A stretch of 36,023 nt of DNA from Ilumatobacteraceae bacterium (lineage in GTDB: Bacteria; Actinomycetota; Acidimicrobiia; Acidimicrobiales; Ilumatobacteraceae). Each line of letters starts with the position of its first letter. Position 1 is the first letter of the stretch. Position numbers and translations under genes: made by a program. The notes below the pieces were generated by a model. The model searched no databases. It saw nothing but the letters and a program-made list of their open reading frames with translations, and was not told the origin of the DNA. Positions 19,368 through 30,517 of this stretch are shown here, piece by piece. The stretch lies in the NCBI GenBank assembly GCA_017856815.1, contig JAFMEI010000004.1:1-36023 (forward strand), in the 5' to 3' direction.

Positions 19368-19517
19368 GGGGTTGTTCTCCGTTGTCTTAGGGGGTGTCGC
19401 CGAGCCGTTATCTCATTGGCACCCTGATGTGTAATCGGCTACGAGTGTAGGAAATCTGACACGCCCCGTACGAAATACCCGAACTTGGGCCTTTCCCCGC
19501 TACCGTCAATTCTTGCT
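19368..19517. promoter_or_regulatory. Divergent promoter region between hppA and sdhC
   Basis: 150 nt separate the two divergent genes. On the plus strand TACCGT at 19501-19506 lies 11 nt before the sdhC ATG and is the best -10 candidate. For hppA no single -10 stands out; GGAG shortly before its GTG is a ribosome-binding site. No obvious repeat was seen. Confidence 0.4.
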
Positions 19518-20276
19518 ATGGCACAAGTCTTGAACAGCCGCGGACCCGTAACGGGCACCGCCACAAGGGCAAAGAAGCGCCGTCCATTCCTTTTGGACCT
19601 CTATTCCACGGCAGTGGGAAAGAAGTACGTGATGGCAATCACGGGCATTGGAATGATGGGCTTTGTCCTTTTCCACATGATCGGCAACCTGAAGATGTAT
19701 CAGGGTGCGGACGACCTCAATAAGTACGCGGAGTTTCTAAAGAAGCTTCTCTATCCGCTGGCACCCAAAGAAGCGGTGCTTTGGATTTTGCGCGGTGGGC
19801 TCATCACGATGCTCGTACTGCATCTGCATGCTGCATTGACACTCACCCGACTCAATCGTCATGCGCGCCCTGTTAAGTACCAGAGCGCACGTGATTATCA
19901 AGTGGCAAGTTTCGCAAGTCGTTCAATGCGGTTGTCGGGCTTGGTGGTCATAGCGTTCCTCGTGTGGCATCTTTTGGATCTCACCTTTGGTGCGGTGAAC
20001 ACCGTTGGCGCAGATGGTGAATTTGTTCGTGCAGAGGTTTACGACAACGTGGTTCGTAGCTTTGACCGACCAGTCGTTGCGGTGTTCTACATCATCGCCA
20101 ACGTGTTGCTTGGAATCCATTTATTCCACGGTTCGTGGAGCATCTTCCAGTCGCTTGGTTGGAACAATCCACGTTTTAACAAGTGGCGTCGCGCATTCGC
20201 TGGTGGCTTTGCCACCGTGGTTGTCGTTGGCAATATCTCGTTCCCCGTTGCCGTTATGGCAGGAATCGTCGGCTGA
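19518..20276 (+). CDS. sdhC: Succinate dehydrogenase cytochrome b subunit
   Basis: A 252-residue single membrane anchor of the b558 type (one polypeptide with five helices carrying the heme, no SdhD). [27 protein letters not shown] is split across the first helix and its heme-ligand His; further His residues in [18 protein letters not shown] and GIHLFHGSW lie in later helices where the b-heme ligands are expected. The ATG at 19518 is chosen over an in-frame start at 19485, whose extra residues look unrelated to the family. It heads sdhCAB, 17 nt before sdhA. Confidence 0.93.
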
Positions 20277-20293
20277 GGAAGAAGGAAACAGAA

Positions 20294-22222
20294 ATGACCA
20301 CTGACTCAAGACTCAACTCAAAGGCTCCACAAGGTGCAATTGAAGACAAATGGAACAACTACAAAGCTGACGTAAAGCTTGTTAACCCGAACAACAAGCG
20401 CAAGTTCAAAGTGATTGTTGTCGGCACTGGACTCGCTGGTGCAAGCGCTGCCGCCACGCTTGCGGAACTCGGGTATCAAGTTGATGCGTTTACGTTCCAC
20501 GATTCACCACGCCGTGCACACTCGATCGCAGCTCAAGGTGGCATAAATGCCGCCAAGAACTATCGCGGCGATGGTGACTCCGTTCATCGGCTCTTCTACG
20601 ACACCGTAAAAGGCGGCGACTTCCGCTCACGTGAAAGCAACGTGCATCGTCTCGCCGAGGTTTCAGTGAACATCATCGACCAGATGGTTGCCCAAGGTGT
20701 TCCTTTTGCCCGCGAATACGGTGGTCTTTTGGACAACCGTTCGTTCGGTGGCGCCCAGGTCAGCCGTACTTTTTACGCCCGCGGTCAGACTGGCCAGCAA
20801 CTTCTGCTTGGTGCCTACCAGCAGTTGGCGCGCCAGATCGGTCTTGGTGGCGTTCGCTTGTTTAACCGCACAGAACTAGTTGATGTGGTTGTGATCGATG
20901 GTCGGGCCTCGGGCATCGTGGTGCGCGATCTGATGACCGGTGAGATTTCCTCTCATTCGGCGCACGCAGTTGTGCTGGCCACTGGTGGCTACGGCAACGT
21001 GTTCTTCCTCAGTACCAATGCGATGGCTTGCAACGTGACCGCCACTTGGCGTGCGCACCGCAAGGGCGCATTCTTTGCCAACCCGTGTTACACACAGATT
21101 CACCCCACTTGTATTCCACAAAGTGATGAGTCGCAGTCCAAGTTGACCCTCATGTCCGAGTCGCTTCGTAACGACGGTCGCGTGTGGGTGCCGAAAAAGC
21201 AGAACGAGACACGTCCGATTGATCAGATCCCTGAAGAAGATCGTGACTACTACCTCGAACGGCTCTATCCATCGTTTGGCAACCTCGCGCCACGTGACAT
21301 CTCATCGCGTGCGGCAAAGCGTGCCGTTGACGATGGTCGTGGCGTCGGGCCGCTGAAGAACGGTGTGTATCTGGACTTCTCAGACTCGATCAATCGCCTC
21401 GGCAAGGATGTAGTTGCCGAGCGTTATGGAAACTTGTTCGAGATGTATGAGCGCATCGCTGGAGAGAATCCTTACGAAGTGCCCATGCGCATCTATCCGG
21501 CGTCGCACTACACAATGGGCGGCCTCTGGGTTGACTACGAGTTGATGACCACCATTCCTGGTTTGTATGCAGCGGGCGAAGCGAACTTCTCCGACCACGG
21601 CGCAAACCGACTCGGAGCTTCCGCTTTGATGCAAGGTCTTGCAGATGGCTACTTCGTATTGCCGTACACAATTGGTAATTACTTGGCTCCGATGCTCAAC
21701 CAAGGCACTCCAGACACCAATCATCCGGAGTTCAAGAAAGCCGAAGAGGATGCTCGCAATCGTTTCCAGGGCTATCTGAACATCAAGGGCTCACGGTCAC
21801 CTGACTGGTTCCACCGCAAGTTCGGAAAGATCATCTGGGACTACTGCGGAATGGAACGCACCGCTGAAGGTCTGCAAAAAGCCCTTAGCGATCTAGAGCC
21901 GCTGTATGAGGAGTTCAAGACCGACCTTCGCGTAACCGGTGACGGGGAATCGATGAACCAAACCCTTGAAAAGGCCGGCCGCGTCGACGACTTCATCCAG
22001 CTTGGAATGCTGATGTGTCGCGACGCATTGGAACGCAACGAAAGCTGCGGCGGTCATTTCCGTGCCGAGTATCAGACCGATGACGGCGAAGCACAGCGCG
22101 ACGACGACAACTTCTGTCACGTGGCGGCTTGGGAATGGACCGGTGACCCGATGAAGGCGATCCGCAATGTCGAAGACCTGAATTACGAAACAGTCCACCT
22201 CGCAACGAGGAGCTACAAGTGA
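20294..22222 (+). CDS. sdhA: Succinate dehydrogenase flavoprotein subunit
   Basis: A 642-residue FAD subunit of complex II, oxidising succinate to fumarate. The dinucleotide fold is [12 protein letters not shown] at about 42-53, and [12 protein letters not shown] gives the histidine (His76) for covalent FAD attachment. [21 protein letters not shown] and [15 protein letters not shown] are substrate and FAD motifs of the type found with b558 SdhC. ATG at 20294 follows GAGGAAGAAGGA; the longer frame to 20183 lies within sdhC and is rejected. Its stop overlaps the sdhB GTG by 4 nt. Confidence 0.97.
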
Positions 22223-22998
22223 GCAATCATCTAAATGACATCACACTGAAAATTTGGCGCCAAGCTGGTCCAAACGAACGCGGTCGCTTTGAGACATATC
22301 TGATTGATCAGATAAGCGATGAAGCGTCGTTCCTGGAAATGCTTGACATTTTGAATGAGCGTCTAATCACTGAGGGTCGTGAGCCTGTCACATTCGACCA
22401 CGACTGCCGTGAAGGCATTTGCGGAACCTGTTCATTGATGATCAACGGCCAAGCACATGGCCCGCAAAAGTCAACCGCCACCTGCCAGTTGCACATGCGC
22501 AAGTTTCAAAGTGGTGACCAGATTGTGATCGAGCCTTGGAGGGCGTCTGCTTTTCCAATCATCAAGGACTTGATGGTTAATCGCTCGGCTTTCGACCGCA
22601 TCATTGAAGCTGGTGGTTTCATCACCGCTCCAACCGGTGGAGCGCCAGATGCGAACCTCATTCCAATTCCGAAGCCCGTCTCTGACGCCGCCATGGACTC
22701 CGCCGAGTGCATCGGTTGCGGTGCGTGTGTTGCTGCTTGCCCCAACGGTGCGGCAAATCTTTTCACTGCCGCGAAGATCTCTCACCTCAACTTGCTTCCG
22801 CAGGGACAGGCCGAGCGTTACTCGCGCGTTGAAGCGATGGTTGAAACCATGGACGATTACTTCGGATCTTGCACCAATCACGGTGAGTGTGAAGCTGCGT
22901 GCCCGAAGTCAATCTCTATCGATGTCATTGCTCTGATGAACAAGGACTATCGCAAGGCGAAGTTCAAAAACCGCAAAACTTCTGCACGCGCTGACTGA
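22219..22998 (+). CDS. sdhB: Succinate dehydrogenase iron-sulfur subunit
   Basis: A 259-residue electron-transfer subunit of complex II. The plant-type 2Fe-2S site is visible in [19 protein letters not shown] with a later Cys in STATCQ. The 4Fe-4S and 3Fe-4S sites are [15 protein letters not shown] and [18 protein letters not shown] start in a GTGA overlap with sdhA. It ends 9 nt before the stop of the convergent GH2 gene; a TGCGC-TCA-GCGCA inverted repeat at 23003-23015 lies across that junction. Confidence 0.97.
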
Positions 22999-23002
22999 TC
23001 TT

Positions 23003-23015
23003 TGCGCTCAGCGCA
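23003..23015. terminator. Possible hairpin between sdhB and the GH2-like gene
   Basis: TGCGC-TCA-GCGCA gives a 5-bp stem in the junction of the convergent genes, overlapping the end of the GH2-like gene. There is no T-tract on the sdhB side beyond a single TTT before the stem, so termination is only possible. Confidence 0.25.
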
Positions 23016-25074
23016 CAACAAATTCGTAGCTGTTCCGCACATCCATGCCAGCACCGTTGAGGTGCAGATCTAGTCGCGCATCACCAGCGGTAGAAATAAC
23101 TAGAGCAATTGAACCAACTTTTGCGCATACATCTGCCTCTACCGGGCCTTCCCACGCCCAAGAACGAGTGCCGCTGGACCAGGTGAGAGTGGCAGTAACC
23201 GTGGCTTCAGTGATTGCATCAGGTAGGTCACTGACCACGTGAATGTCCGTAACAAACTCGGCACCAAGGGCATGCTCACTTGGTACCTCTGCCGTGACGA
23301 TCACCTCGGCACAAGCAGCCCGAACTACCTCAACTGCGCGTTTTGGCACACGGCTGTGGTCATAGATGCCGTATCCAATGCAGGGCTGTGCATCGGCCAG
23401 CATGAGGAAACAGAATCCGCCATTTGGTGAATATTTGATCCTGCGTAGTGCCTCAATGTGATGCTTTAAAAGTTCCGCTTGGTACTCCTGAGTGGCGGTC
23501 GCCCACGACGCGTAGTTGGGGTGTTCCGAAGCTGGTACGAAGCGCTCGAATGCATCACGCTGCATTCCAAAGCGTTCTGAAACAGTGTCCCAATCAAGCT
23601 GTGGCCACGACTTGATGTCAATAAATGCGGCGTCGCTTGGCGCTGATTGGGCTCCGAATCCGGAGACAAACTTGGTCAACTTGGGCAGACGCTCAGCGAG
23701 TGCGTTGATGTCTCGATAACTGCCGTGGCGCCAACCAAAGCTCGCGTTCATATCGGTGCCGTCGAGCTTCGGAAAGTGTGGCAAAACACCAGAGTGGGCA
23801 GTGACGGGACGCGAATCATCAGCGTCACTCAATGCTTTGCGCACCCACGCATCAAGCACGCTGCGGGTCCACGTAGGGAGTTGTTGGTGCAATGGGTCTG
23901 GTTGGGTTGGCTGGTTGTGAGCGCACCAAAGAACGATTGACGGGTGATGGGCGAGTTGGTCCACCATCGCGCGGGCTTGGCGCACCGCTTGGCGCCGAAC
24001 ACTGCGCGCATACGCCCCATAGAGCGGCACGTCCTGCCACACGAGCATTCCAGCGGCATCGGCGGCATCGTAGAACTCCGGCCTCGCCACGTGCGCTAGC
24101 GGTCGCACCAAATTCATTCCGAGTTCGCGCGCGAGTGCGACATCGTTAGCGATCATCTCAGGGCTGCAGTCAGCCATCCGCAGTGCAGTGGGCCCAACTG
24201 CGATACCACGTGTGTACAGGCGTTCACCATTAATTGTGAAGATCCAATTGTCGTGTGCCACTTGGCGCAGTCCTGTGCGGCGCGAAACCGAATCACTGGC
24301 AACACCGTCCACCTGCACTTCAACTGCAATATCGGTGAGAGCGGCTTCACCTAGTTGCCATGGCCACCAAAGACGCGGATTGTCAATATCAATTGCCCAG
24401 TCGAGGGAGTTCGAGCCAGCGGCGAGTGTGTGTTCATCTGCACGGACCAGAACGCCGTCAACGAAAGTTCTTACCAACGCGCCACGTGAAGCAAGTGAGT
24501 CGAGCTCAGCATGAAGACGCACGTGCGCCCGTGACTCACTTGCGTCTCTGCACAACACACGAAGGTTTGCGATTCGAACTGGACCCGTAGAGAAGAGTTC
24601 AACCCCGCGCCACAACCCGCCCATATTCCACAGCGGATCCAAGAAGTCGTTTTGGTCAAAGATGCCTGTGACATTGCGTTTTGATTTCTTGTCACTCGCA
24701 CGTGGTGATGAAACTTCGACTGCGAGCACGTGGTCAGTTGCGAGTCTGCAGAGATCGGTGACATCAAAGGAATGCTCGACGAAGTAACCCTCCGGGTCAC
24801 CGAGGTAAGCGCCATCAAGCCACGCATCACCCTGGTAGTAAATGCCATCGAACTTGATCCAGCGACGCTCGCCACTCAGCGGTTCGGACGCATTGAAGTG
24901 GTGGCGATAGAGAACTGGGCCGTTGGAGTCGGCAAACTCAGGATGTGAACGCCAGTGACCCGGCACATCAATATTCGGCCAACCAGAATCGTCGACCTCA
25001 AGGCCAACGCCGGAGCGTCGCAGATGGTCGTCGGCAATTCGTGCCTTCCAGCGACCATTAAGTGTCATTCTCAT
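23008..25074 (-). CDS. GH2-fold protein lacking both catalytic glutamates (candidate pseudoenzyme)
   Basis: A 688-residue protein with the full GH2 architecture: a sugar-binding jelly roll (LNGRW start, VPGHW, YYQGDAWLDG, GGLWRGVELF), an immunoglobulin-like domain ending near LWWPW, a TIM barrel (TRGIAVGPTALR, GMNLVRPLAHV, GMLVWQDVPLYGA) and a beta-rich tail. In active GH2 enzymes the acid/base is the Glu after Asn in HPSI.LWC..NE; here it is Gln388 (LWCAHNQ, codon CAG). The nucleophile in SEFG.QS is Gly472 (VSGFGAQS, codon GGA). Each differs from a Glu codon by one base. The frame is intact with no signal peptide, so it may bind rather than cleave glycans. The start could be the ATG at 25068, which has a better spaced AGGA. 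Confidence 0.88.
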   Translation of the reverse strand: MRMTLNGRWKARIADDHLRRSGVGLEVDDSGWPNIDVPGHWRSHPEFADSNGPVLYRHHFNASEPLSGERRWIKFDGIYYQGDAWLDGAYLGDPEGYFVEHSFDVTDLCRLATDHVLAVEVSSPRASDKKSKRNVTGIFDQNDFLDPLWNMGGLWRGVELFSTGPVRIANLRVLCRDASESRAHVRLHAELDSLASRGALVRTFVDGVLVRADEHTLAAGSNSLDWAIDIDNPRLWWPWQLGEAALTDIAVEVQVDGVASDSVSRRTGLRQVAHDNWIFTINGERLYTRGIAVGPTALRMADCSPEMIANDVALARELGMNLVRPLAHVARPEFYDAADAAGMLVWQDVPLYGAYARSVRRQAVRQARAMVDQLAHHPSIVLWCAHNQPTQPDPLHQQLPTWTRSVLDAWVRKALSDADDSRPVTAHSGVLPHFPKLDGTDMNASFGWRHGSYRDINALAERLPKLTKFVSGFGAQSAPSDAAFIDIKSWPQLDWDTVSERFGMQRDAFERFVPASEHPNYASWATATQEYQAELLKHHIEALRRIKYSPNGGFCFLMLADAQPCIGYGIYDHSRVPKRAVEVVRAACAEVIVTAEVPSEHALGAEFVTDIHVVSDLPDAITEATVTATLTWSSGTRSWAWEGPVEADVCAKVGSIALVISTAGDARLDLHLNGAGMDVRNSYEFVVR

Positions 25075-25110: not shown

Positions 25111-26574
25111 ATGAGCGCACAGAGATTCATGGCCGGCGACGAAGCACCCGAGGTCCCAAGTGATCTCCCACGCACTCTTGGCGCGTTACGAGCTAGCGGG
25201 TGGGTTTCACGGCCAGTCAAAGAGGAAATCCGTACTAATGCGGTTGCCCGAATTGCTGCCGGTGAACCCTTGTTCGCGGGTGTTCTTGGCTACGAAGACA
25301 CAGTTATGCCGCAACTAGAGAATGCTCTCATCGCCGGCCACGACGTGGTGTTCCTTGGAGAGCGTGGCCAGGCCAAAACCAGGATGATTCGCTCCTTGGT
25401 GGGTCTGCTTGATGAGTGGATGCCGATCATCGCTGGCAGCGAGATCAACGACGATCCATACAATCCAGTTTCGCGGTATGCGTTGAACCAGATTGCAGAG
25501 CACGGCGAGAACACCGCGATCGATTGGGTGCATTGCACCAAGCGTTACGGCGAAAAACTCGCTACCCCAGATACCGCAATCGCTGACCTCATTGGGGAAG
25601 TGGATCCAATCAAAGTTGCCGAGGGTCGTTATCTCTCTGACGAACTCACGTTGCACTACGGGCTCGTACCGAGGACCAACCGAGGCATTTTTGCGATCAA
25701 CGAACTTCCAGACCTCGCCGAACGCATTCAAGTTGGCCTACTGAATGTTCTTGAAGAACGCGATGTGCAAATCCGGGGTTACAAGATCCGATTGCCACTC
25801 GATGTGATTTTGATGGCTTCGGCCAACCCCGAGGACTACACAAATCGTGGTCGTCTGATCACTCCGCTTAAGGATCGTTTTGGCAGCCAGATCCGCACTC
25901 ACTACCCACTTGAAGTTGCTACTGAGATTGGAATCATGCGCCAAGAGGCCCGTGAGTTGTCAATTGGCAGTGTCAAGGTGCACATGCCTGAGTACATGGA
26001 AGAAGTGATCGCTACCTTCAGCCAACTCGCGCGCCAAAGCAGTCACGTAAACCAGCGCAGCGGCGTTTCTGTGCGTCTCTCAGTGAGTAACTATGAAGTT
26101 CTTGGCGCAAATGCAGTTCGTCGTGCATTGCGGTTAGGTGAAAACGAAGTCACGCCGCGAATCTGCGACCTCGATTCACTGGCGGCTTCAAGTAGCGGAA
26201 AGATCGAAGTTGAGTCGCTTGATGATCGTGGCGGTGACTCTGTGCTCGAGCAGATTGTGCGAGCTGCGTGTCTTCAAGTGTTCAAATTGCGGGTGGATCA
26301 GACCACCTTGCCCGAAGTGGTAGCTGCGTTCGAAGAAGGCACGATTGCCCACACTGGCGAGGAAGTTTCATCTGCGGAACTGGCAAAACTGGTTGAGCAA
26401 GTTCCTGCATTGCGCACTGCCGTCACCAATCTCACAGCTGGAGTTGAGTCCCCTTCAGCTGTCGCGGCAGCCGTGGAGTTCATCCTTGAAGGTCTTCATC
26501 TTTCTAAGCGTCTGAACAAGGATGCGCTTGGAACGAATGCGACTTATCGGGGCAAGGCGCGACCCGCCACCTGA
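25111..26574 (+). CDS. MoxR/ChlI-like AAA+ ATPase
   Basis: A 487-residue cytosolic AAA+ ATPase related to magnesium-chelatase I subunits and MoxR chaperones. Walker A GERGQAKT is at 83-90, the Walker B segment is GIFAINELPDL, and sensor 1 and the arginine finger region follow as ASANPEDYTNRGR and PLKDRFG. Walker B has Asn before the catalytic Glu, which I recall as normal for this subfamily. The family typically works with a VWA-domain partner to remodel or insert a cofactor into targets; the partner here is the gene at 27163, on the same strand but separated by a reverse-oriented cyclase gene. The client protein is unknown. Confidence 0.9.
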   Translation: MSAQRFMAGDEAPEVPSDLPRTLGALRASGWVSRPVKEEIRTNAVARIAAGEPLFAGVLGYEDTVMPQLENALIAGHDVVFLGERGQAKTRMIRSLVGLLDEWMPIIAGSEINDDPYNPVSRYALNQIAEHGENTAIDWVHCTKRYGEKLATPDTAIADLIGEVDPIKVAEGRYLSDELTLHYGLVPRTNRGIFAINELPDLAERIQVGLLNVLEERDVQIRGYKIRLPLDVILMASANPEDYTNRGRLITPLKDRFGSQIRTHYPLEVATEIGIMRQEARELSIGSVKVHMPEYMEEVIATFSQLARQSSHVNQRSGVSVRLSVSNYEVLGANAVRRALRLGENEVTPRICDLDSLAASSSGKIEVESLDDRGGDSVLEQIVRAACLQVFKLRVDQTTLPEVVAAFEEGTIAHTGEEVSSAELAKLVEQVPALRTAVTNLTAGVESPSAVAAAVEFILEGLHLSKRLNKDALGTNATYRGKARPAT

Positions 26575-26577
26575 ATC

Positions 26578-27129
26578 TCAGAGTGCAAACGGCGTGCGAG
26601 TCCAAAGCTCGCCAGTGTCGTTTCGTGACACCGAATGCGGGTCGCCGCTGAGAGCCACAACCTGAATCGGCTCTGGGAACCCGCGGAGATCTAACTCCGA
26701 ATGTGGCTGCGCAGAGACCCCGCCTGGAAGGTCAACGGCCTGTTCTGCGGGGAGTAGGACTTCATCGCGACCCGCTGCATCACATATGCGCGCGGCCAGA
26801 TTGACTGTGGTGCCGATGTAGTCGTCGCCCTCGAATAGAAGGGCATAGCCAGTAGAGATACCAGCGCGCATGCTGAGCGGCTCACAGGCTGCTGTGGCGC
26901 GGCGCTGGAGCTCAAGGGAAAAGACCACGGCGTCGTTGTGGTCCATGGCCACCACCATGCAGCCATCGCCGAGCCATTTGGCGATTCTGACCCCGCGATC
27001 GCTGGCCACCTCGCGCGCAACCGCCCGAAACGCTGAAAGGACATCGCCTGCGGCAAGGTCGCCTTTCTCTTCTGCGTATCTGGTGAAACCCGAAAGGTCG
27101 ACGAAAACGAATGTTCTGGGGACGCGCAT
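26578..27129 (-). CDS. Class III adenylate/guanylate cyclase, catalytic domain only
   Basis: A 183-residue standalone cyclase homology domain. The metal-binding aspartates are Asp11 (FVDLSGFT) and Asp55 (KWLGDG), the purine-recognition pair is Lys51 and Asp103, and the transition-state pair is Asn110 and Arg114 in VNLAARICDAA. Spacing between these six residues is the same as I recall for mycobacterial Rv1625c, so activity is likely and Lys/Asp favours ATP. There is no receptor, HAMP or membrane segment, so regulation must come from partners. It sits on the minus strand between moxR and vwa, ending 3 nt after the moxR stop and starting 33 nt from the vwa ATG. Confidence 0.92.
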   Translation of the reverse strand: MRVPRTFVFVDLSGFTRYAEEKGDLAAGDVLSAFRAVAREVASDRGVRIAKWLGDGCMVVAMDHNDAVVFSLELQRRATAACEPLSMRAGISTGYALLFEGDDYIGTTVNLAARICDAAGRDEVLLPAEQAVDLPGGVSAQPHSELDLRGFPEPIQVVALSGDPHSVSRNDTGELWTRTPFAL

Positions 27130-29713: not shown

Positions 29714-30517
29714 TCAGTTATCGGTGAGCCTGCGATTGCGGGCTGCTAATTGCCATTCAATCGTTTTTTCAGCGGTTAAGTCGAGAACATTCCAGCGATT
29801 CTTCGGTATTTGCTGCAACACATTCGCTGGTATGAGCCCCACTAATTCGCATTGATCGATCTGTGCCATTGCACTGATCATGTCGAAAACTTCCGCTGGC
29901 CCAACTTGTGTAGGTGCGATCAAGTTCATGCTGACCTGTGCTCCTGCACTGATCTCCATTCCGAGTGCACGCACATGCTGTGAGCGCAGTTTGCCGGCAA
30001 TCTCGCGTGCCGTCTTGATCCCAGAATCGGCCAAAATCACGTTGTAGGCGACCAATATCTCGCGGGCACCTACACAGATTGCCCCGGCGGTTGGATGTGG
30101 GGTGGGCGGCCCGAGATCAGGCTGAAGACGGGTGAAGGCATCCTTGCGCAGCTGCGGCAGTGAGCGCCCTGTTCCATAGAGAAAGCAAGGGACGCCAAAT
30201 TCGGTGGCGACAAACTCGGCGAACTCGTCTCGCGCAGCAACCGCATCGGAAAAGTTAGAGCCATCCAGGGGGACAAAGGGCACAACATCAACAACACCAA
30301 GGCGTGGATGCACGCCAGCGTGGTCGTTGATGTCCAGTGCGGTAATCGCACCTCGCGCGATATCTCGCGGGGCGGTGGTGCCGACAGTTGTAATCACGCT
30401 GCGGTTGTGATCGGGATCCGAATGGACATCAAGGAGGTCGGGACCAGCCAGCATGGCAATTGCGGCCACCACCTCAAGGGCGCGCCCCTCACTGATGTTC
30501 ACAACGCACTCCAGCAC
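29714..30517 (-). CDS. Glutamate formiminotransferase (FTCD N-terminal-type)
   Basis: A 267-residue enzyme transferring a formimino or formyl group between glutamate and tetrahydrofolate. ECVVNISEGR at the start, LLDVHSDPDHNRSVIT near 28-43, DHAGVHPRLGVVDVVPFVP near 85-103 and ISAGAQVSMNL later are family motifs and include the catalytic histidine region. It has only the transferase domain; no cyclodeaminase domain is fused, and no other histidine-degradation gene is nearby, so use in folate salvage rather than histidine catabolism is possible. GTG start. Ends 3 nt after the convergent WhmD-like gene. Confidence 0.88.
   Translation of the reverse strand: MLECVVNISEGRALEVVAAIAMLAGPDLLDVHSDPDHNRSVITTVGTTAPRDIARGAITALDINDHAGVHPRLGVVDVVPFVPLDGSNFSDAVAARDEFAEFVATEFGVPCFLYGTGRSLPQLRKDAFTRLQPDLGPPTPHPTAGAICVGAREILVAYNVILADSGIKTAREIAGKLRSQHVRALGMEISAGAQVSMNLIAPTQVGPAEVFDMISAMAQIDQCELVGLIPANVLQQIPKNRWNVLDLTAEKTIEWQLAARNRRLTDN

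Follow-up and report, generated by a model that had tools for sequence, protein, structure and literature searches.

A maintained GH2-fold protein lacking both catalytic glutamates, from an actinobacterial family with recurrent loss of the catalytic pair

A GH2-fold protein encoded in an Ilumatobacteraceae genome carries glutamine and glycine at the positions of the two catalytic glutamates, and its gene is maintained by purifying selection. Our best explanation is that the protein is a cytosolic pseudoglycosidase kept for a role in binding or regulation that involves no hydrolysis, and for this statement as a whole we give a probability of about 0.68. The DNA analysed, hereafter the window, is a stretch of 36,023 nucleotides (contig JAFMEI010000004.1, assembly GCA_017856815.1). 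Pseudoenzymes are commonly seen as arising after gene duplication; in the family described here, the catalytic pair was lost again and again at a fixed chromosomal place, with shared neighbouring residues changing and the gene surviving under selection.

Results

Both catalytic glutamates are replaced in a GH2-fold protein

The gene lies at positions 23008-25074 on the minus strand, as an uninterrupted frame of 688 codons with an ATG start. The 688-residue product belongs to the GH2 fold family, with Pfam matches all above cut-off to the N-terminal jelly-roll (PF02837, 6.7e-10, 39.6 bits for a cut-off of 28), the middle immunoglobulin-like domain (PF00703, 5.3e-8, 34 bits for 23) and the TIM barrel (PF02836, 9e-7, 28.8 bits for 21). 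The jelly-roll domain, similar to the GH2 sugar-binding domain, covers residues 1-162 (approximately 24589-25074, minus strand; PF02837 match at residues 4-162) and the TIM-barrel region residues 277-590 (approximately 23305-24246, minus strand; Pfam match, outer boundaries estimated). The C-terminal region (residues 591-688; 23011-23304, minus strand) is the fastest-evolving part, with 13 differences over 98 residues relative to the genus mate described below. No signal peptide is apparent by eye, which suggests a cytosolic location.

To place the catalytic positions, we used a family profile built from 26 orthologues, whose best matches among solved structures are the GH2 beta-mannosidases 5n6u (2.3e-59), 6bye (4.4e-59) and BtMan2A, 2je8 (1.5e-51), over nearly the whole length. 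The domain order and the WQD, WC..N[E] and [E]FG.Q motifs are common to these enzymes and the window family; the relationship to the window protein is nonetheless remote, His386 replacing Asn in the acid/base motif and both glutamates being absent. Profile columns 388 and 472 align onto the 6bye catalytic motifs LWCGNNE and RFMSEYGLQSFP, and these positions, 84 residues apart, are therefore the catalytic acid/base and nucleophile pair. At the end of strand 4, the acid/base glutamate is replaced by Gln388 (WCAHN[Q]P; codon CAG, 23911-23913, minus strand), and at the end of strand 7 the nucleophile is replaced by Gly472 (FVS[G]FGAQS; codon GGA, 23659-23661, minus strand), each codon being one base away from a Glu codon. 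The Pfam domains, the 6bye alignment and the reading frame thus bear out what a preliminary description had proposed for the fold, the replaced pair, its spacing, its codons and the intact frame, and the alignment puts Gln388 and Gly472, rather than other glutamates, at the two catalytic positions. By the same alignment, none of the eight barrel strands of the window protein ends in a new Asp or Glu, so that the catalytic residues are absent without a compensating acid; D348 and D441 are ancestral, being already present in members with both glutamates (Glu/Glu).

The preliminary description had also considered the surrounding motifs well preserved. This holds for most near-invariant family positions, but 8 of the 116 differ in the window protein, and several of these (N292, N403, H443, E388 and E472) surround the active site in the barrel (the two Glu columns are invariant among the 111 full-length Glu/Glu orthologues by definition of that class). 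The window protein carries N292A, Q352Y, W353G, H443N, Y445S and W568Y and keeps N387. Against all conserved columns, the window protein's own deviations show no significant enrichment near the active site (odds 1.47, p 0.28). The residues are placed in the pocket by sequence alignment, and their positions there are to be read as putative; AlphaFold2 run on the window protein and the genus mate only (two sequences) gave a pLDDT of 29.

LacZ-type beta-galactosidases and beta-glucuronidases belong to the same GH2 family and have the three recognised domains, but the window protein scores far under the cut-offs of the NCBIfam equivalogs (89 of 900 bits for GalA). Within its own genome it matches only itself, the subfamily being single-copy. 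A second GH2 gene, separate and LacZ-type, is present on another contig (locus L239, contig C77:5436-6299; 988-codon frame). Unlike the window gene it has both catalytic motifs intact (WSLGNEAG and MCEFSHAMGNS), and the loss of the pair in the window protein therefore does not reflect a wider loss of GH2 activity.

The altered gene is maintained in the genus

The only other genome of the window genus found for comparison (G298), a separate metagenome assembly that seems, from its sequence, to be the record CAIYHK010000087.1 (L031), encodes a protein of 95% identity that bears the same Gln/Gly pair. Between the two genes, nucleotide identity is 90.3%, dN 0.024 and dS 0.44, giving a dN/dS of 0.054 with zero indels; the corresponding dN/dS ranges from 0 to 0.23 for the genes adjoining the GH2 gene, from 0.055 to 0.27 for pairs of active (Glu/Glu) orthologues, and from 0.07 to 0.29 for other pairs that lost both residues. 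Residues 376-479, a stretch chosen post hoc to span both catalytic sites, show 0 substitutions over 104 positions, which is the opposite of active-site decay. Sequencing error, strain-specific mutation and decay are very unlikely sources of the Gln/Gly pair, given the same pair in the genus mate, the dN/dS of 0.054 and the unchanged active-site stretch. The gene is thus intact in both genomes and maintained by selection, and the view of the preliminary description that the protein is a pseudoenzyme and not a product of decay is well supported from sequence for the former and strongly supported for the latter, synteny being kept as well. Gln388 and Gly472 are conserved in the 95% identical relative but not across the orthologues, most of which are Glu/Glu; these share only ~50% identity with the window protein, and no close orthologue with Glu was found.

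The window genus sits on a long branch of ~1.06 changes per site, on which constraint may have been relaxed along the stem and then tightened.

A syntenic, largely single-copy family

Homologues were found in 139 of 298 genomes of the order (E<1e-60), in 111 of 221 genomes of the family to which the window genus belongs (1e-20) and in 58 of 198 genomes of the class (1e-15), many of these genomes being draft or metagenome assemblies; weaker homologues occur elsewhere in the phylum in few genomes. Most genomes have one copy. In the window, the succinate dehydrogenase C, A and B genes (19485-22998, plus strand; Pfam and synteny) are convergent with the GH2 gene and separated from it by ~10 bp, and a MoxR-like AAA ATPase gene (25111-26574, plus strand; Pfam AAA_5 and synteny) is divergent from it across a 36-bp gap. 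The same order, sdh operon, GH2 gene, divergently oriented MoxR-like gene, recurs across the class. Among loci with enough flanking sequence, MoxR lies upstream at 77 of 110 Glu/Glu loci, and at the 28 loci without either acidic residue MoxR is found at 24 and Sdh at 22. The homologues are therefore mostly syntenic and largely single-copy orthologues. Both neighbours are conserved but without an obvious functional link, and offer no genomic clue to a partner.

In some genomes (loci L211, L214, L218 and L224), the sdh genes adjoin MoxR with no GH2 gene between. The gene can thus vanish cleanly, and its role is dispensable in the lineages that lack it. At one further sdh/MoxR junction (L219:179-1619, plus strand), we observed a strongly diverged GH2 relative with a 480-codon frame, 29% identical over residues 5-425 only and possibly truncated or frameshifted.

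The catalytic pair was lost repeatedly

The majority of homologues, 111 full-length orthologues, are Glu/Glu, as are the relatives found elsewhere in the phylum (L226-L228). For these reasons, Glu/Glu is probably the ancestral state and the ancestor an active hydrolase. The remaining sequences display many other pairs at positions 388/472, among them A/A, R/A, S/G, T/G, Q/A, A/R, E/G, E/A, D/S, D/E, R/E, E/D and E/H. Parsimony on a 183-row tree, with losses taken as irreversible, counts 18 losses of the nucleophile and 22 of the acid/base, and loss of both glutamates requires nine changes, some of them on weakly supported branches and all counts leaning on a tree with long-branch attraction. 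The nine double-loss lineages are the window genus, L042/L047/L054, a genus designated g9 (L074-L077), L167/L173, L179, L190, L140/L109, L126/L128/L129 and L095-L098/L153/L155. As in the window genus, the frames of the other double-loss lineages are open.

The order of loss appears to differ between lineages: the T/E member (L231) beside A/A and R/A members in the L042 genus suggests that the acid/base was lost first, and the E/A and E/G relatives of the L126 clade suggest that the nucleophile was lost first there. In the 617-620-aa protein of genus g9, the acid/base motif is deleted, as are positions around 124-151 and the greater part of 473-533. With these catalytic segments missing, it cannot, as judged from its sequence, use the GH2 mechanism; the gene is nevertheless still syntenic, with a dN/dS of ~0.07. 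Besides the acid/base motif, the g9 deletions take away a loop of the jelly-roll and the greater part of the nucleophile region.

The first 183-row tree (LG+G4) grouped the window genus with other degenerate sequences at support of 30 or lower, a placement that we took as long-branch attraction; a mixture-model tree returned it to its own family with support of 100. Separately, a clade of eight loci (L127, L134, L100, L101, L108, L135, L142 and L143) keeps the acid/base Glu, the nucleophile being replaced by Gly or Ala. Such an arrangement is that of engineered glycosynthases and inverting phosphorylases.

Residues change together with loss of the nucleophile

We ranked ~170 moderately conserved columns by how they co-vary with loss of the nucleophile, using phylogenetically independent pairs drawn on the first tree, where long branches attract each other. 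The top scores, expressed as pairs changing the same way against the opposite way, are 8.1:0.0 for W353, 8.1:0.3 for Q352 and 7.7:0.5 for N387, and are overstated by being picked from many columns; V138, A477, Y445 and W568 are further leading columns, and the near-invariant N292, tested separately, gave 7.3:0. By alignment, the leading columns map mostly to barrel strand ends or to the loop 134-155 and so probably border the substrate site. That several columns around one site agree is a stronger point than the top scores. A convergence at H326, apparent in a clade table, failed over independent pairs (1.6:0.7).

Other residues are kept in nucleophile-less sequences: R324 and H328 in 59 of 59 each, D348 in 58 of 59, H386 in 54 of 59 and W448 in 50 of 54. 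Position 388 drifts freely to A, R, S, T and G in the other double-loss clades. Replacements of the nucleophile are Ala, Gly or Ser in 10 of 15 unambiguous independent events (binomial p ~0.009 against an expected 1/3).

At position 387, which directly precedes the acid/base position, Asp is found in 20 of the 22 sequences that lack both catalytic residues and in 16 of 114 Glu/Glu members, and among double-loss sequences Asn is kept there only by the window genus. In the Asp-bearing double-loss lineages, Asp387 is a possible shifted acid.

Discussion

The retaining GH2 mechanism requires both glutamates. The window protein has neither of them, no other acid replaces them and its sugar site is altered, so that it very probably does not hydrolyse glycosides. 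We propose that the protein descends vertically from a beta-mannosidase-like retaining exo-glycosidase, largely single-copy, encoded between the succinate dehydrogenase operon and the MoxR-type AAA gene. In the window genus, the acid/base became Gln388 and the nucleophile Gly472, with likely substrate-binding residues nearby altered as well (N292A, Q352Y, W353G, H443N, Y445S and W568Y), such that classical double-displacement glycoside hydrolysis would no longer run. Strong purifying selection after the catalytic loss means that the protein does something needing the fold. Most likely it serves in binding rather than catalysis, whether as a scaffold or regulatory partner or as a small-ligand sensor, in which case the ligand would be held in the vacated mouth of the barrel, near the conserved residues R324, H328, D348, H386 and W448.

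A binding role could also take the form of a lectin, the ancestral glycoside being still bound, uncut, at a preserved sugar site. The isosteric replacement of Glu by Gln at position 388 is compatible with glycan binding, N387 is kept in the window genus, the jelly-roll domain is intact and the active-site stretch of 104 residues is identical to that of the genus mate. However, W353, Q352, N292, H443, Y445 and W568, likely substrate-site residues placed in the pocket by alignment, are all changed, so that the sugar site of active relatives is not conserved, and similar changes go with nucleophile loss in other lineages. We therefore regard this form as unlikely, and the glycan binding on a conserved scaffold suggested by the preliminary description is weakened by the loss of the nucleophile together with W353, Q352, N292, N387, Y445 and W568 in independent lineages. 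Its other proposal, a new mechanism, finds no positive support, there being no compensating acid and position 388 drifting in the other double-loss clades. Such altered chemistry, with phosphate or another cosubstrate in the Gly472 cavity, as in a phosphorylase or glycosynthase, or with other acids such as D348 and D441, appears somewhat less probable still: the often small nucleophile replacements (10 of 15) and the large clade retaining Glu388 with Gly or Ala at 472 speak for it, but mutation bias alone could favour Glu-to-Gly/Ala changes, the window protein lacks the general acid too, and D348 and D441 already occur in Glu/Glu members, with no new Asp or Glu at strand ends.

Slow pseudogenisation, in which the gene would drift toward deletion after losing catalysis, as in the sister lineages without it, is suggested by the long branch to the window genus and by the clean absence of the gene from several genomes that retain its neighbours. 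It is already largely refuted by a dN/dS of 0.054 at a dS of 0.44 with zero indels between two species, by the unchanged active-site segment and by the open frames of other double-loss lineages, and we hold it to be very improbable. A sequencing or assembly error or a recent strain-specific mutation, conceivable for draft, fragmented assemblies and for codons each one base from Glu, is refuted by the presence of the Gln/Gly pair in a separately assembled genome whose gene is 90% identical in nucleotides, and its probability is negligible. A pseudoglycosidase kept for non-hydrolytic binding or regulation remains the reading that we favour. Extending it to the whole class is more tentative: with odds slightly against, the syntenic GH2 protein may have had a second, non-hydrolytic function predating the catalytic loss. 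If so, this moonlighting role would explain why about nine lineages discarded both glutamates, one of them its catalytic segments, while the gene stayed in place, and the family would form a natural replicate series for the passage from enzyme to non-enzyme without gene duplication.

A review (PMC10211241) covers pseudoenzymes whose catalytic residues have migrated, and roles of pseudoenzymes in regulation, scaffolding or competition. Inactive members of the fungal Dis3/RNase II family are reported to have evolved repeatedly with function kept (PMC8097288); these pseudonucleases differ from the window protein in being eukaryotic, of unrelated fold and of known, RNA-binding function. Beetle plant-cell-wall-degrading pseudoenzymes, glycoside hydrolase members with a role but no catalysis, reportedly arise in duplicated multigene families (PMC6549527), whereas in the present family catalysis is lost by syntenic orthologues that are largely single-copy, and no active copy of the subfamily remains in the window genome. 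We found no description of a GH2 pseudoenzyme family, or of the sdh/GH2/MoxR locus, in the open-access literature, which is not proof of novelty. The family constitutes a replicated natural experiment on the conversion of enzyme to pseudoenzyme in bacteria and suggests that these actinobacteria have a function yet to be described; counts of GH2 genes overstate the glycan-degrading capacity of such genomes.

Two further genes of the window are of note. A small adenylate/guanylate-cyclase-like gene (26578-27129, minus strand) lies antisense between the MoxR and VWA genes and is also present in the genus mate. A stand-alone formiminotransferase-domain protein of 267 aa is encoded at 29714-30517 (minus strand), between a WhiB-like gene and polyphosphate kinase.
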